From an uncultured Collinsella sp. (GTDB lineage Bacteria > Actinomycetota > Coriobacteriia > Coriobacteriales > Coriobacteriaceae), in contig CAAEEB010000089.1 in NCBI GenBank assembly GCA_900754745.1, forward strand, positions 1 through 64,000: a DNA stretch of 64,000 nt, written 5' to 3'. Positions 22,936-51,309 of this stretch are shown here, piece by piece (position 1 is the stretch's first letter; every line of letters begins with the position of its first letter). The notes under the pieces were generated by a model that did not search any database, was not told the DNA's origin, and saw only the letters and a program-made list of their open reading frames with translations. A program made the translations under genes and the position numbers.

Positions 22936-22978
22936 AAAACCACCACAAAGGGGACAGGCACCTTTGTGGTGGTTTTTG
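22936..22978 (+). terminator. terminator with GGGGACAGGCA loop (CCACCAC family)
   Basis: AAAAACCACCACAAAGG at 22936-22952 pairs with CCTTTGTGGTGGTTTTT at 22962-22978. The loop is GGACAGGCA. It is the best-preserved of four such hairpins (others at 24362, 25969 and 28380). Confidence 0.85.
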
Positions 22979-24274: not shown

Positions 24275-24331
24275 GTCTAGATCTGTAACAATAAGCCTGC
24301 TTTTAGGGGCCTATCTGTTACAGACTGAGAC
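24275..24331. repeat. solitary unit of the 80-bp palindrome family
   Basis: Left arm GTCTAGATCTGTAACA (24275-24290), 25-bp core (24291-24315), right arm TGTTACAGACTGAGAC (24316-24331). It has the same dimensions as the units in the arrays at 28060, 43947 and 48677. Confidence 0.8.
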
Positions 24332-25968: not shown

Positions 25969-26003
25969 ACCACCACGAAGGGGACAGGCACCTTTGTGGT
26001 GGT
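25969..26003. repeat. CCACCAC/GGGGACAGGCA hairpin in the leader of the next gene
   Basis: ACCACCACGAAGG (25969-25981) pairs with CCTTTGTGGTGGT (25991-26003). There is no T-run, and the gene starts 27 bp later, so here the same sequence that ends transcription at 22936 sits in an mRNA leader. Confidence 0.7.
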
Positions 26004-28059: not shown

Positions 28060-28357
28060 GTCTCGATCTGTAACAACTAGCCACCAAAAACGGCCCTAGA
28101 TGTTACAGATTTAGATGAACCGTCTGACTGCCAACCTAATGTCTCGATCTGTAACACCAAACGAGTAATTTGGGTTCCAGATGTTACAGATTGAGACAAG
28201 CTGGCGAGTGCCGGAACAACGTCTCGATCTGTAACACGTAGCGGGGTATTTGGCCTCTTACTGTTACAGATCGAGATGAACGGGCGGACGCTCGCGCAAT
28301 GTCTCGATCTGTAACATCTACGGGGATCAGCAGGGTCTACCTGTTACAGATCGAGAC
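28060..28357. repeat. array A of the 80-bp palindrome family (4 units)
   Basis: Units begin at 28060, 28141, 28221 and 28301 (spacing 81, 80, 80). Each has left arm GTCTCGATCTGTAACA, a 25-bp core, right arm TGTTACAGATYGAGAY, and 23-24-bp linkers. All four left arms are identical; the right arms differ at a few bases. The cores differ from those in arrays B and C. Confidence 0.92.
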
Positions 28358-28379: not shown

Positions 28380-28414
28380 ACCACCACAAAGGCGTCTGTC
28401 CCCTTCGTGGTGGT
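28380..28414. repeat. CCACCAC-family hairpin
   Basis: ACCACCACAAAGG (28380-28392) pairs with CCTTCGTGGTGGT (28402-28414, one mismatch). GTCCCC in the loop shows it in inverse orientation compared with 22936. It abuts array A. Confidence 0.65.
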
Positions 28415-28496: not shown

Positions 28497-29906
28497 TTAC
28501 TCGCCCAGCAGGCTCTTGGTGATGGAAGCGGCGGCCTTCTTGCCGGCGCCCATCGCCAGAATGACCGTAGCGGCACCGGTGACGATGTCGCCGCCGGCCC
28601 AAATGCGGGGATCGGTGGTCTGGCCGGTCTCCTCGTCGGCGACGATGTAGCCCCACTTGTTGAGCTCCATCTTGCCGCCGATCTTAGCAGCGAAGGGGTT
28701 GGCGTTGGTGCCGATAGCCGAGATCGCGACATCGCAGGGAATCTCCTCGATGGCGCCCTCGATGGCGACCGGACGACGACGGCCGGACTCGTCGGGCTCG
28801 CCGAGCTCCATCTTCTGGACCTTGACGGCGCACACGGAGCCGTCCTCGCCAGCGACAAACTCGAGCGGGGAGACGAGCGGCAGAACCTCGACGCCCTCGG
28901 CCTTAGCGTGGTGCAGCTCGGCGCGGCGGCAGGGCATCTCGTCCTCGGTACGACGGTAGGCGATGATGGCGTGCTCGGCGCCCAGACGCTTGGCGGTACG
29001 GACGGCGTCCATAGCCACGTTGCCGCCACCAAAGACGACGACGTTCTTGCCGTGCTTGGTGGGGGTGTCGTACTCGGGGAACTTGTTGGCCTTCATCAGG
29101 TTCACGCGGGTGAGGTACTCGTTGGCGAAGAAGACGTTGGGCAGGTTCTCGCCGGGGACGTTGAGGAACTTGGGCAGGCCGGCGCCGGTCGCCACGTAGA
29201 TGGCGTCGAAGCCCTGCTCGAACAGCTCCTCGGCCGTGGCCATGTTGCCCACGACGGAGTTGTACTCAAACTTGACACCCATGTCCTCCAGGCCGTCGAT
29301 CTCGCGCTTGACGACCGCCTTGGGCAGACGGAACTCGGGGATGCCGTAGACCAGCACGCCGCCGCCGGTGAAGAAGGCCTCGAAGACGGTGACGTCAAAG
29401 CCGTTACGGGCGAGCTCGCCGGCGCAAGTGATGCCGGACGGGCCGGAACCGACGACGGCGACCTTCTTGCCGTTCTTGGGAGCCATCTTGGGCGTGGAGG
29501 CGAGCTCGGGGCGGTCACCCAGGAAGCGCTCGAGCTGGCCGATGGCCACGGGCTCGGACTTCTTGCCACGGATGCACTTGCCCTCGCACTGGTTCTCCTG
29601 CGGGCAGACGCGGCCGCAGATGGCGGGAAGCATGGAGTCCTCGCGGATGGTATCGAGAGCGCCGCCAAAGTCCTTCTCGCGGATCTGCTCGATAAAGCGG
29701 GGGATGTTGATGTTGACGGGGCAGCCCTCAACACAGAACGGCTTCTTGCAGTTGAGGCAGCGCTCGGCCTCGGCCAGCGCCATCTCCTCGGTGAAGCCCT
29801 TGTCGACGGGGCGGAAGTCGCAGGCGCGCTCGGCGGCCGGCTCCTCGTTATCCGGGGTGCGGGGCGACTTCATATCGGCAACGAAACGACCGTTAACTAG
29901 TGGCAT
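28497..29906 (-). CDS. nfnB: NfnB, large subunit of electron-bifurcating ferredoxin:NADP oxidoreductase
   Basis: A 469-residue flavo-iron-sulphur protein, similar to the small subunit of glutamate synthase. With NfnA it couples NADH- and ferredoxin-dependent reduction of NADP. The N-terminal [4Fe-4S] ligands are in CLNCKKPFCVEGCPV and CGRVCPQENQCEGKC. Two Rossmann folds follow: VAVVGSGPSGITCAGELA (FAD) and VVVFGGGNVAMDAVRTAKRL (NADPH), and GGDIVTGAATVILAMGAGK closes the FAD site. The start codon lies inside the last codons of nfnA (10-bp overlap), so production is coupled. Length 469 is the usual size for NfnB/NfnL. The gltD assignment is less likely because the partner is an NfnA-type protein and no gltB is present. 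Confidence 0.92.
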   Translation of the reverse strand: MPLVNGRFVADMKSPRTPDNEEPAAERACDFRPVDKGFTEEMALAEAERCLNCKKPFCVEGCPVNINIPRFIEQIREKDFGGALDTIREDSMLPAICGRVCPQENQCEGKCIRGKKSEPVAIGQLERFLGDRPELASTPKMAPKNGKKVAVVGSGPSGITCAGELARNGFDVTVFEAFFTGGGVLVYGIPEFRLPKAVVKREIDGLEDMGVKFEYNSVVGNMATAEELFEQGFDAIYVATGAGLPKFLNVPGENLPNVFFANEYLTRVNLMKANKFPEYDTPTKHGKNVVVFGGGNVAMDAVRTAKRLGAEHAIIAYRRTEDEMPCRRAELHHAKAEGVEVLPLVSPLEFVAGEDGSVCAVKVQKMELGEPDESGRRRPVAIEGAIEEIPCDVAISAIGTNANPFAAKIGGKMELNKWGYIVADEETGQTTDPRIWAGGDIVTGAATVILAMGAGKKAAASITKSLLGE

Positions 29907-43946: not shown

Positions 43947-44245
43947 ATCTCGATCTGTAACATCTAGACCCGATTTGGACGGCTAGGTGTTACAGATCGA
44001 GATGTTTCGGCAGGACGGTCTTCGTTTGTCTAAATCTGTAACACGAGGGACGGATTTTGCCGAGTTGTTGTTACAGATTGAGATTTTCTAGCAGGCGGGT
44101 TCGGCTTGTCTCGATCTGTAACAGGTAGGGGCCAAAAGTGGGGCTAGATGTTACAGATCTAGATTGTTGAGGATGGGTCGAGATGAATATCTTGATCTGT
44201 AACAGTAAGACCCGGTTTTGCCGAGTAACTGTTACAGAACGAGAC
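43947..44245. repeat. array B of the 80-bp palindrome family (4 units)
   Basis: Units start at 43947, 44028, 44108 and 44189. The arms vary slightly (for example GTCTAAATCTGTAACA in unit 2). All cores are 25 bp. The core types of units 2, 3 and 4 (beginning CGAGGGACGG, GGTAGGGG and GTAAGACCC) recur in the same order in array C. Confidence 0.92.
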
Positions 44246-47379: not shown

Positions 47380-48360
47380 CTAGCTGACGGCTTGTCCTGC
47401 GGCGGCGCGATGTGCCGTCCTGCCTCCGACCAGGGAGGGAACCTGTGCCAGGCATACGCCGGCGAGGATGATGGCGACGCCCAGCCACTCGACGACGCCG
47501 AGCGGCTCACAGAGGACGATCATGGCGATGAGCAGGCCGGCGGGGAGTTCCGCGGCGGCCATGACAGTGGAGAGGCCCGCGGGCAGGTGCGGAGAGCCCA
47601 TGCCGAAGAGCAGGACCGGGCAGAGCATGCCAAAGAAGCCAGCGATGACGGCAAAGGGCAGGATGCCCTGGGCGAGGACGCCCGAGACGACGTAGTCCGG
47701 GCACACCGTGAGCGACATGACCACGGAGCCCGCGCACACGATGACGCCACGCTGCTCGGACGAGCAGGGGGCCTCGACCTTGCCGGAGAGGGTGACAAAG
47801 AGGGAGCAGGAGACGGCCGCCCCCAGCGCGCAGAGCAGGGCCACGGGGTCGTACCCGGTGATGCCGGTCTTGTAGACGCCGCTGGCGAACACCGTTCCGA
47901 AGACGATGACCAGGGCGGAGATTACTTGGAGGGGCCTCGGCGGCCGGCGCGTCATGACGGTCTGCCACACGAGCCCCAGCCACGTGAACTGGAAGAGGAG
48001 CGTGAGCGCCACCGGGGCGGGCAGCACGCTCATGGCGTAGCAGTAGAGGATTGAGGTGAGGCAGGTGAGGGCTCCCAGGCCCATGAGCTTGAGGGCGAGC
48101 TTCCGGCCCACGCGTTGCCAGCGGTGCCCGAGCGCATGGCCCGCGAGTGTGGCGAGGGCGAAGAAGAGGCAGCCAAACCACGCCTGGCTCGCCACCACCT
48201 GCGCCGAGGTGAAGCCCGCGGCGTAGGCGAGCTTGTAGGTCGTGGCCATCGCGCCGTAGCAGGCGCCGCCCGCAAAGACCTGGAGTGCCGCCTTGGCCTG
48301 TCCCTCGCCCGTGGCTCCTGCCCCGGCGGCCTGTTGCTTGATTGTGTTTGTTTCTGCCAT
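47380..48360 (-). CDS. DMT-superfamily (EamA) membrane exporter
   Basis: A 326-residue protein with ten membrane helices in two EamA repeats (about 25-155 and 175-310); PLGVVEWLGVAIILAGVCLAQ is the typical end of the second. The substrate is unknown. ATG 48360 is preceded by GAAAGGGAG; the longer open frame to 48516 crosses a terminator hairpin and is rejected. It may be the first gene of the glucoside module or an independent unit, as a GC-rich stem lies between it and bglA. Confidence 0.82.
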   Translation of the reverse strand: MAETNTIKQQAAGAGATGEGQAKAALQVFAGGACYGAMATTYKLAYAAGFTSAQVVASQAWFGCLFFALATLAGHALGHRWQRVGRKLALKLMGLGALTCLTSILYCYAMSVLPAPVALTLLFQFTWLGLVWQTVMTRRPPRPLQVISALVIVFGTVFASGVYKTGITGYDPVALLCALGAAVSCSLFVTLSGKVEAPCSSEQRGVIVCAGSVVMSLTVCPDYVVSGVLAQGILPFAVIAGFFGMLCPVLLFGMGSPHLPAGLSTVMAAAELPAGLLIAMIVLCEPLGVVEWLGVAIILAGVCLAQVPSLVGGRTAHRAAAGQAVS

Positions 48361-48676: not shown

Positions 48677-49137
48677 GTCTCGATCTGTAACAGTTGGGGG
48701 GGGGTCGAAAGGGGGTCTAGGTGTTACAGATTGAGATTTTCGGCGAGCCGGGCTCAGTTTGTCTAAATCTGTAACACGAGGGACGGATTTTGCCGAGTTA
48801 CTGTTACAGATTTAGATTTTCTGGCAGACGGGTCCCGTTTATCTCGATCTGTAACATCTGGGGCCCATTTTGTCGAGCAACTGTTACAGATTTAGATCTT
48901 TCGGCAGATTAGATTGGTTTGTCTCGATCTGTAACAGGTAGGGGTCAAAAGTGGGTCTAGATGTTACAGATTGAGATGTTTGGTCGGACCGAGTTTGTTC
49001 GTCTCGATTTGTAACATCTAGGGTCGTTTTTGGTCTGCAGGTGTTACAGATCGAGATTTTCCGACGGAACGCTTCCGTTTGTCTCGATCTGTAACAGTAA
49101 GCCCCGGTTTCGCCGCGTAACTGTTACAGATCGAGAC
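48677..49137. repeat. array C of the 80-bp palindrome family (6 units)
   Basis: Units start at 48677, 48761, 48841, 48921, 49001 and 49081; the last five are exactly 80 bp apart. Arms are GTCTCGATCTGTAACA and TGTTACAGATYGAGAY; cores are 25 bp, except the first (29 bp, with a run of nine G). Linkers are 23 bp and share the pattern TTTCGGC-N-CGG-N-GTTT. This is the largest array in the window. Confidence 0.95.
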
Positions 49138-49278
49138 AAACCGACGGGCCGCCCCGTCCCATCCACCTGCCGCTGCCTGCTGTCCGCCGATTTCAGTTGT
49201 GCCGCCGTGCTCCCATGCCATATCCTTTAGACAACTACGCGGCACCATCGCCGCCGCGCCTACAAGAGAGGAATGTCC

Positions 49279-51309
49279 ATGACCGCACCTGCATCCAAGC
49301 TGCTCCAGCCCATTACGGTTGGCCCCCTTGAGCTCAAGAACCGCATTATGTTCCCGCCGCTGACCACCGGCTACGAGGAGCGCGACGGTTCCATCGGCGA
49401 GCGCAGCCTGGCCTTTTATGAGCGTCTGGCCCGTGGCGGCGTGAGCTACATCGTCATCGGCGACGTCGCTCCCGTTATGACCGCAAGCCCCACGCCCAAG
49501 CTGGCGACCGACGCCCAGATCCCCACGTTTAAGGCACTGGCCGACGCCGTCCACAAGCACAGCGCCAAGGTCGCGCTGCAGCTGTTCCACCCCGAGTATG
49601 ACGTGCCCGGTGTCGGCCGCATGGTCATGGGATCCATGGCCGCTGCCAAGGCCGCGCAGGAGGCCAAGGCCGCCGGCGACGAGGAGACCTTTGCCGCCAA
49701 GATGGCCGAGTCCAACGAGATCCGCAATCAGGCCTACGCCAAGCTGCACCACGACATGCAGCACTTTGTGAACGAGGCAAGCGTAGAACAGCTCACCCAG
49801 ATCAAGGAAGCCATCGCTGCCTCGGCCGCCCGTGCGCAGCAGGCCGGCATCGACGCCATCGAGGTCCACGGCGATCGCCTGGTGGGTTCGCTGTGCTCGG
49901 CCATCCTCAACCAGCGCACCGACGAGTACGGTGGCTCGTTCGAGAACCGCGTTCGCTACGCGCTCGAGGTCGTCGCTGCCATTAAGGAAGCCGCGCCGCA
50001 GCTGATGGTGGAGTACAAGCTCCCCGTGATCATGGAGAACCCCGACGGCACGCCGCGCGGCAAGGGCGGCCTGCAGCCTGACGAGGCCTGCGAGTTCGCC
50101 AAGCTGCTCGAGGGCGCGGGCATCGACATGATCCAGGTTGCACAGGCCAACCACACCGGCAACATGGGCGACACCATTCCGCCCATGGGCGCCATGCCCT
50201 ACAACTGGACGCTGCCCGTGGCCGAGCGCGTCAAGGCCCTGGTCTCCGTGCCGGTGGCAACCGTGGGCCGTGTCATCTCGGTCGAGGCCGGCGAGAAGAT
50301 TCTGGAAGACGGCGCGGCCGACATCATCGCCTATGGCCGCTCGCTCATGTGCGACCCTGACATTGCGCTGAAGGCTGCCACGGGTGAGCCCATCCGCGAG
50401 TGCCTCAACTGCAACAAGGGCTGCGTCGATGCGATTCAAAACCGCAAGTACATCTCGTGCGTGCTCAACGCCGAGAACGGCGACGAGGCGACCGTCGCCA
50501 TCAAGCCGGGCGAGGGCGACAAGAAGATCGCCGTGGTGGGCGGCGGTATTGCCGGCCTGGAGGCCGCACGCGTGGCGGCCAAGCGCGGCTACGATGTGAC
50601 CGTCTACGAGGCGAGCGATCATCTGGGCGGCCAGATTGTGCTGGCGGCCGCGCCTCCGCGCAAGGACGAGATCATGCGCTCGGTCGAGTATTACGAGAAG
50701 ATTCTGCCCGGCCTGGGCGTGAAGGTTGAGCTCAACCATGCCGCTACTGCTGAGGACCTCAACGCCGCCGACGCCGCGATTGTGGCCGTGGGCGCGCACG
50801 ACGTGGTTATCCCCGTTCCGGGTGCCGACTCGGAGAAGGTCGTCTCGAGCTGGGACGTGCTGGCCGGCAAGGCGGAGCTTACGGGCCGCGTCGCTGTCAT
50901 TGGCGGCGGCCTGGTGGGCACCGAGACTGCCGAGTACCTGCTGCAGCACGGCTGCGAGGTGGCGATCGTGGAGATGCTCGACAAGATTGCCGCGGGCGAG
51001 TCCGAGACCATTCTGCCGCTGATTATGAGCGACTTTGCAGAGCACAACGTGGAGCAGCACGTGAAGACCCGCCTGACCGCCATTACCGACGAGGGCGTGG
51101 AGGCCATTCGCACCACCGAGGACGGCGCCGAGGAGCCGGTGAAGATCGCCTGCGATTACGTGGTGATGGCCGTGGGCTCCAAGGCCAACGCGTTTGACCT
51201 GGACGGCGTGACGGTGCCCGTGACCTGCGTGGGCGACTGCTCGGGCGAGCGCACTGCCGACATTGCGAGCGCCATTCGCACGGCGTATCACGCGGCCAAC
51301 GAGCTGTAG
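49279..51309 (+). CDS. FMN/FAD/[4Fe-4S] oxidoreductase of the Old Yellow Enzyme / 2,4-dienoyl-CoA reductase family
   Basis: A 676-residue flavoenzyme. An N-terminal FMN-binding TIM barrel (1-370) starts PITVGPLELKNRIMFPPLTT and has DAIEVHGDRLVGSLCSAILN; the usual catalytic HxxH is replaced by EVHGDR. The 4Fe-4S ligands are in ECLNCNKGCVDAI and the following ISC. The C-terminal part has FAD and NAD folds (IAVVGGGIAGLEAARVAAKR, VAVIGGGLVGTETAEYL). The family includes gut bacterial bile-acid (BaiCD/BaiH), enoate and 2,4-dienoyl-CoA reductases. Substrate unknown. ATG 49279 is preferred to 49273 because GAGAGG lies seven bases before it. Confidence 0.9.
   Translation: MTAPASKLLQPITVGPLELKNRIMFPPLTTGYEERDGSIGERSLAFYERLARGGVSYIVIGDVAPVMTASPTPKLATDAQIPTFKALADAVHKHSAKVALQLFHPEYDVPGVGRMVMGSMAAAKAAQEAKAAGDEETFAAKMAESNEIRNQAYAKLHHDMQHFVNEASVEQLTQIKEAIAASAARAQQAGIDAIEVHGDRLVGSLCSAILNQRTDEYGGSFENRVRYALEVVAAIKEAAPQLMVEYKLPVIMENPDGTPRGKGGLQPDEACEFAKLLEGAGIDMIQVAQANHTGNMGDTIPPMGAMPYNWTLPVAERVKALVSVPVATVGRVISVEAGEKILEDGAADIIAYGRSLMCDPDIALKAATGEPIRECLNCNKGCVDAIQNRKYISCVLNAENGDEATVAIKPGEGDKKIAVVGGGIAGLEAARVAAKRGYDVTVYEASDHLGGQIVLAAAPPRKDEIMRSVEYYEKILPGLGVKVELNHAATAEDLNAADAAIVAVGAHDVVIPVPGADSEKVVSSWDVLAGKAELTGRVAVIGGGLVGTETAEYLLQHGCEVAIVEMLDKIAAGESETILPLIMSDFAEHNVEQHVKTRLTAITDEGVEAIRTTEDGAEEPVKIACDYVVMAVGSKANAFDLDGVTVPVTCVGDCSGERTADIASAIRTAYHAANEL

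Follow-up and report, generated by a model that had tools for sequence, protein, structure and literature searches.

Background

The BIMEs of enterobacteria, BIME-2 among them, are short intergenic elements of alternating orientation, regular spacing and variable copy number, and passages of two articles report that they bind gyrase (BIME-2), IHF (BIME-1) and Pol I (PMC2817692, PMC6379681). The REP palindromes of Stenotrophomonas are preserved, which in the passage concerned is taken to suggest complementary mutations (PMC2817692), and a passage of PMC12306157 links the REP array REP325/naRNA4 of E. coli to nucleoid condensation through RNA.

Here we describe a repeat from a stretch of Collinsella DNA of 64,000 nucleotides (the window), the arms of which change ten times more slowly than their surroundings and which is present in dozens of copies per genome; as far as the sequences go, such a site family would imply an undescribed DNA-binding activity in gut Collinsella. 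No description of the repeat was found in the literature among the matches listed (supplements were outside the scope); the Collinsella passages of PMC8040213 and PMC7771070 mention the organism and not the repeat, and the parts of PMC3733652 and PMC12306157 that were available do not name Collinsella.

Architecture of the repeat

The window has 30 arm matches, i.e. 15 units in four intergenic arrays (Table 1), where 0.22 matches are expected and where none of 100 shuffles reached this number. A unit consists of a 15-bp arm (TCTCGATCTGTAACA), a 25-bp core and the inverted arm, and linkers of 25 or 26 bp join the units. The sequence-only reading had reported a 15-copy intergenic repeat with an array of six units, and both this and the spacing of exactly 80 bp between the starts of units 2-6 are borne out. 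Its statement that every unit has the same geometry holds for units 2-6 and fails for unit 1 (48678-48736), which starts 84 bp before unit 2 and has a core of 29 bp containing a run of nine G; the 25-bp core stands, with arms of 15 rather than 16 bp, and the 23-bp linker gives way to one of mostly 25 or 26 bp. Outside the main array the period is 80 or 81 bp. The ordered likeness between the cores of the 43948 array and those of the main array suggests that a block was duplicated.

Table 1. Positions of repeat units, companion hairpins and neighbouring genes in the window
Feature	Position	Strand	Remarks
REP-like hairpin copy	22940..22972		
Single unit	24276..24330		
REP-like hairpin copy	25970..26002		looser pattern only
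Array, 4 units	28061..28356		between convergent predicted genes
REP-like hairpin CCACCAC...GTGGTGG	28381..28413		24 bp from end of 28061 array
NADPH-dependent glutamate synthase	28497..29873	-	TIGR01316, 540.2 bits, cut-off 471.75; query for orthologous sites
Array, 4 units	43948..44244		three cores resemble main-array cores, in the same order
Transporter-like gene, divergent neighbour of main array	47380..48360	-	TIGR00950, 46.9 bits, below cut-off 230.2
Main array, 6 units	48678..49136		arm starts 48678, 48762, 48842, 48922, 49002, 49082; core 25 bp except unit 1
Example unit	48762..48816		arm 48762-48776, core 48777-48801, inverted arm 48802-48816
Bilirubin reductase, long form	49273..51309	+	NF045599, 1042.9 bits, cut-off 750; 136 bp beyond main array

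Across 136 loci and the window, the gap between facing neighbour arms is exactly 25 bp in 381 of 386 cases and 24, 26, 26, 26 and 29 bp in the others (counted with no limit on core length and after 56 cases of an arm called twice with overlap had been removed). Outward neighbour arms are separated by 25 bp (161 cases), 26 bp (108), 24 bp (8) or 23 bp (1), and another 57 neighbours point in the same direction, 55 of them at the spacing produced by double calls. Only five arms with at most two mismatches have no partner at 24-26 bp, and two of these belong to unit 1 of the main array with its longer core. Moreover, our own count of rows for one whole chromosome of the clade (G002; 92 rows, less one overlapping double call) gives 91 arms, 86 of them with a partner at 40-41 bp; two of the five without one come from a single unit that an IS has split. 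Orthologs disagree in core length in 6 of 771 comparisons and in linker length in 91 of 471, to be compared with 0.233 gaps per 25 bp in the flanks; these comparisons are pairwise with shared ancestry, hence not independent, and the arrays were predefined by cores of 24-26 or 29 bp. The facing-arm and core-length counts support the suggested selection on spacing, and other genomes keep the spacing, so that the loss of spacing for which the sequence-only reading had allowed did not turn up. Helical phasing was dropped, since the ten-bp phasing of A/T blocks is weak (reached by 68 of 5000 permutations and by 31 of 169 circular shifts).

The pairing at 40-41 bp also argues against IS or MITE ends on the G002 chromosome, the one checked, where no IS with these ends, which would have refuted the sequence-only reading, was seen. 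Two cases of far-apart arms on this chromosome were considered as IS ends: one pair is the unit split by an IS with other ends, and the second is a lone arm beyond a gene that we read as Nramp-like. The inserted element (locus L280, about 298-1650) has GCTTATAGGACAAAATGTGTGTCC-type ends, lies inside the core of one unit and is bordered by an apparent 8-bp target duplication.

Evolution of arms, cores and linkers

The 199 arrays fall into 22 flank groups, i.e. positions common to species, although some of these groups may merge neighbouring sites. Divergence between orthologous units from 16 groups is 1.3% at the 13 fixed arm positions (145/11310 comparisons), which sets these positions apart from arm positions 4-5 (296/1740, 17.0%), the variable core (1132/6960, 16.3%), the linker (996/6927, 14.4%), the flank (1062/8220, 12.9%, stretches with more than 12 differences in 30 being excluded) and the semi-conserved core (371/3915, 9.5%). 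The comparisons are again pairwise among sequences of common ancestry, hence not independent. One group of the 16 has arms that are barely slower than the rest (6.4% vs 6.2-9.4%). The arm finder allows four mismatches per arm, which by itself should not create the gap between the arms and their surroundings.

Arm positions 4 and 5 vary freely and it is these two that the pairing test covers, the other 13 being too invariant. Left and right arms are identical at position 5 in 200 of 411 distinct units (205 expected), and at position 4 a variant is common to both sides in 11 of the 411 units (13.8 expected); hence, there is no covariation between the two sides where the arms vary. A separate count of position-5 pairs gives AA 90, AG 111, GA 109 and GG 118. 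Across linkers, position 5 is the same in 93 of 263 cases, below the 131 expected, and the symmetric core columns 1, 8 and 12 together with several linker columns pair below expectation, with z of about -2 to -5. Complementarity at symmetric positions of core and linker thus falls short of expectation, and avoidance of long perfect palindromes is one guess at this trend. Some linkers resemble small perfect hairpins; the idea of linker hairpins was rejected since in most columns shuffled halves pair more than the symmetric positions do.

Genomic context

By our own gene finder, one of 169 arrays overlaps a predicted gene. Among the 132 arrays with genes on both sides, 61 lie between convergent, 21 between divergent and 50 between tandem genes (36 others have no neighbour in the stretch). 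The arrays thus favour convergent gene ends, also by ortholog group: with each group scored by its commonest orientation, 8 of 19 groups have convergent flanks vs 30 of 202 array-free intergenic regions of at least 150 bp (p = 0.007). The neighbours are functionally mixed: profile matches name glutamate synthase and bilirubin reductase, and our own reading of sequences adds ClpB, PTS, LacI-type, glycogen phosphorylase and others. The main array itself occupies the region upstream of the bilirubin reductase gene. The eight genes that adjoin the window arrays include none that was named as cas, and a search of 50,697 phage records with the main array gave no match.

On G002 both replichores are used, and 15 of the 17 listed arrays (a list that omits a single unit at 1083678) are no more than about 0.7 Mb from dnaA. 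The distances to dnaA cannot be told from a uniform distribution (KS p 0.13 for G002 and 0.06 for G001), and clustering at the origin was dropped for this reason.

A second repeat, a hairpin CCACCACAAAGG...CCTTTGTGGTGG with a centre in both orientations, often borders the arrays (in the window and at L139, L222, L223 and L106). It is enriched beside arrays: a loose pattern gave 87 copies and matched in 36 of 126 array-bearing vs 8 of 202 other intergenic regions, and a strict finder gave 50 copies and 14 of 126 vs 4 of 202 regions; these counts depend on the definition, and many of the compared regions are orthologs of each other.

Distribution and turnover

An exact-pattern scan of 43 Collinsella genomes, with 20-32 bp allowed between half-arms, gave 17-44 units in each of 22 genomes, one in G037 and none in 20; the reversed control pattern had no match. 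At three mismatches, three of the 21 array-poor genomes have one unit each (G016, G037 and G038). In the family, 23 of 65 genomes and one of six genera had matches, and in named bacterial contigs at least 120 stretches matched, all 80 among the matches listed being Collinsella. The repeat is restricted to part of this genus. A scan for tandem palindromes that returned six pairs in the window found none with other arms in G038 and G013 (195 kb of each), both array-free. In viral sequences, one contig has units, between genes that we read as hydrolase-like and integrase-like. One bacterial sequence with 22 matching places, NZ_OY725717.1 of Collinsella aerofaciens (L250; 899,693 bases), is labelled plasmid 6 and carries ribosomal protein genes; it looks like a chromosome rather. 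A Y1/RAYT-like gene in G020 (L196) has GGGGACAGGTCCC-type copies on both sides.

The number of units per array varies, mostly by whole units. Of 22 orthologs of the 28061 site in array-bearing genomes, 12 have two, three or four units and eight have none (L145 and L150 are on stretches too short to judge), and because of this and the varying unit number no single array is essential. At two sites the array-free ortholog retains one hairpin REP and the array sites have two flanking copies, which suggests that recombination between the flanking hairpins may delete arrays; at a third array-free site (L219) the picture is not clear. For the 43948 array, a gene close by served as the query; at a strict limit it matched in 11 of the 43 genomes, and no empty site that could be used came from these.

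In nine of ten loci (L251-L260), the unit closest to clpB on its upstream side is within one base of the same position, the remaining locus (L256) being without a unit and one of the nine coming from G038. In G016 and G038, where one unit each adjoins clpB sequence, an ancestral site had seemed possible; this was dropped given the ClpB identities. The ClpB N-terminus of G038 (L254) is 100% identical to that of the array clade, as against 72-82% in 19 other matched genomes outside the array-rich set, and G038 therefore likely acquired clpB together with one unit by gene transfer rather than by descent. In G016, the best ClpB is located away from its single unit.

Discussion

Base-specific conservation without covariation, at fixed spacing, is the pattern of a protein site on double-stranded DNA, and given the arm conservation, the core length, the lack of covariation and the arm pairing such a site fits the arrays better than a hairpin RNA, a RAYT-borne REP, a CRISPR or IS ends. 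We propose that the unit would consist of two half-sites, inverted and not palindromic in themselves (TCTNNATCTGTAACA, 13 fixed bases), 40 bp apart on duplex DNA, repeated by the array every 80-81 bp. A putative clade-specific DNA-binding protein would read the arms on the duplex and bind pairs and arrays cooperatively, and a nucleoprotein patch would form at gene ends, where it might absorb supercoils, anchor the nucleoid or insulate converging transcription from each other. Such a structural role, similar to that of BIMEs, is our best guess by analogy and is suggested by the gene-end placement, the arrays and the mixed neighbours. For the reading as a whole, from half-site pairs to structural role at gene ends, we estimate a probability of roughly 0.5 on the sequences at hand. 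Protein-binding sites were among the options of the sequence-only reading, and the slow evolution of the arms and the lack of covariation at the varying positions lend support to that option. Against the reading as a whole stand the core and linker positions that pair below expectation, which a symmetric dimer does not explain, the varying unit number and the absence of arrays from eight of the 22 orthologs of one site, the weak phasing of A/T blocks and the dnaA distances that do not differ significantly from uniform; moreover, the 13 arm positions hardly vary and so cannot test pairing, and no binding protein was found, co-occurrence with the arrays having been tested for the Y1 family.

MITEs are the class with which selfish intergenic repeats and IS ends are compared. 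It is possible, though unlikely, that the arrays are a selfish or neutral repeat (MITE- or BIME-like) that had a single episode of spread in the clade and survives where it is harmless, with no host function. Tolerance would account for the intergenic placement and the bias towards 3' ends, and the variation in whole units, the ordered cores common to two window arrays and the array-free orthologs, with one hairpin REP in place of two at two sites, are also in keeping with it. However, arms that change ten-fold more slowly than the cores and linkers between them, and a fixed core length, argue for selection. If the copies had been homogenised, cores and linkers would have become uniform as well; the search for the Y1 family found no mobilising gene.

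A further reading, which we consider rather improbable, is a clade-specific chromatin element in which the 80-81-bp unit would be one superhelical turn and a protein would wrap or bridge the DNA, with the arms on opposite sides. If true, short phased nucleoprotein arrays would exist at the gene ends of a common gut bacterium.

Improbable on present counts is also a repeated hairpin RNA, i.e. transcribed arrays in which each unit forms a stem with a 25-nt loop. Folding of seven window sequences gave stabilities well beyond those of shuffles (z -3.2 to -9.2), the loop length is strict, and in 78 of 116 within-array comparisons units with unlike position 5 share the direction in which they lean, though 27 of the 78 are from one group. 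Nevertheless, there is no covariation at arm positions 4 and 5 (see also the position-5 pair counts above), which weakens the earlier suggestion of a processed hairpin RNA even though the units would fold. At gathering score, Rfam returned only tRNA in the window, and at looser E-values the main array had 11 weak matches, all to microRNA models and far below the cut-offs.

For segregation and condensin-loading sites the classes of comparison are parS and matS. A parS/matS-like function has a small chance: the conserved sites at common chromosome positions and the 15 of 17 arrays near dnaA on G002 would agree with it, and the dnaA distances not distinguishable from uniform, the use of both replichores and the absence of arrays from other Collinsella genomes speak against it. 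As for the nucleoid or segregation site put forward earlier, nearness to dnaA is not significant, and the arrays may still be such a site.

Finally, a REP/REPIN family mobilised by a RAYT transposase is very unlikely: Y1 transposase (PF01797) matches in all 22 array-rich genomes of the genus, and inverted arrays that alternate as in BIMEs, are offset by Y1 genes in 15 of the 21 other genomes, i.e. without arrays, by paired units within about 3 kb at none of the 20 Y1 loci fetched (a subset of those listed; two have one unpaired arm-like match with at most three mismatches), by single arms that are not palindromes, and by a Y1 locus (L196) flanked by GGGGACAGG-type copies instead.

Returning to the protein-site reading, the arrays are short, singly dispensable and confined to one clade, which makes a direct search for the putative protein and its effect by DNA pull-down possible, with the array-free sister species as natural controls.

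Relation to described repeat families

The sequence-only reading recognised no known repeat family, and REP/RAYT, CRISPR and IS ends each fell short in at least one test. Like a CRISPR, the arrays have short conserved words with variable stretches of regular length between them; unlike in a CRISPR, the words alternate in orientation and the stretches carry a common motif and are inherited at orthologous sites. REP325/naRNA4 resembles them as an array, one of REPs and tied to nucleoid condensation through RNA; no sign of an RNA was seen for the Collinsella arrays. With REPINs they share the build of two inverted short sequences forming one extragenic unit, and they differ in that no RAYT flanked by the repeat was seen in 20 loci and that the arms are strongly conserved at common sites. 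Compared with REPs in general, no stem was read within the arm and the two varying arm positions do not covary, in contrast to the preserved palindromes of Stenotrophomonas. The extragenic location, alternating orientation, regular spacing and variable copy number are traits of BIMEs, and E. coli BIMEs with gyrase, IHF or Pol I would be comparable to the proposed nucleoprotein patch; the differences are the non-palindromic arm, the core fixed at 25 bp and the lack of a RAYT flanked by the repeat. The BIME is the nearest analogue, and the Collinsella arrays could show that BIME-like arrays arise without REP and RAYT.
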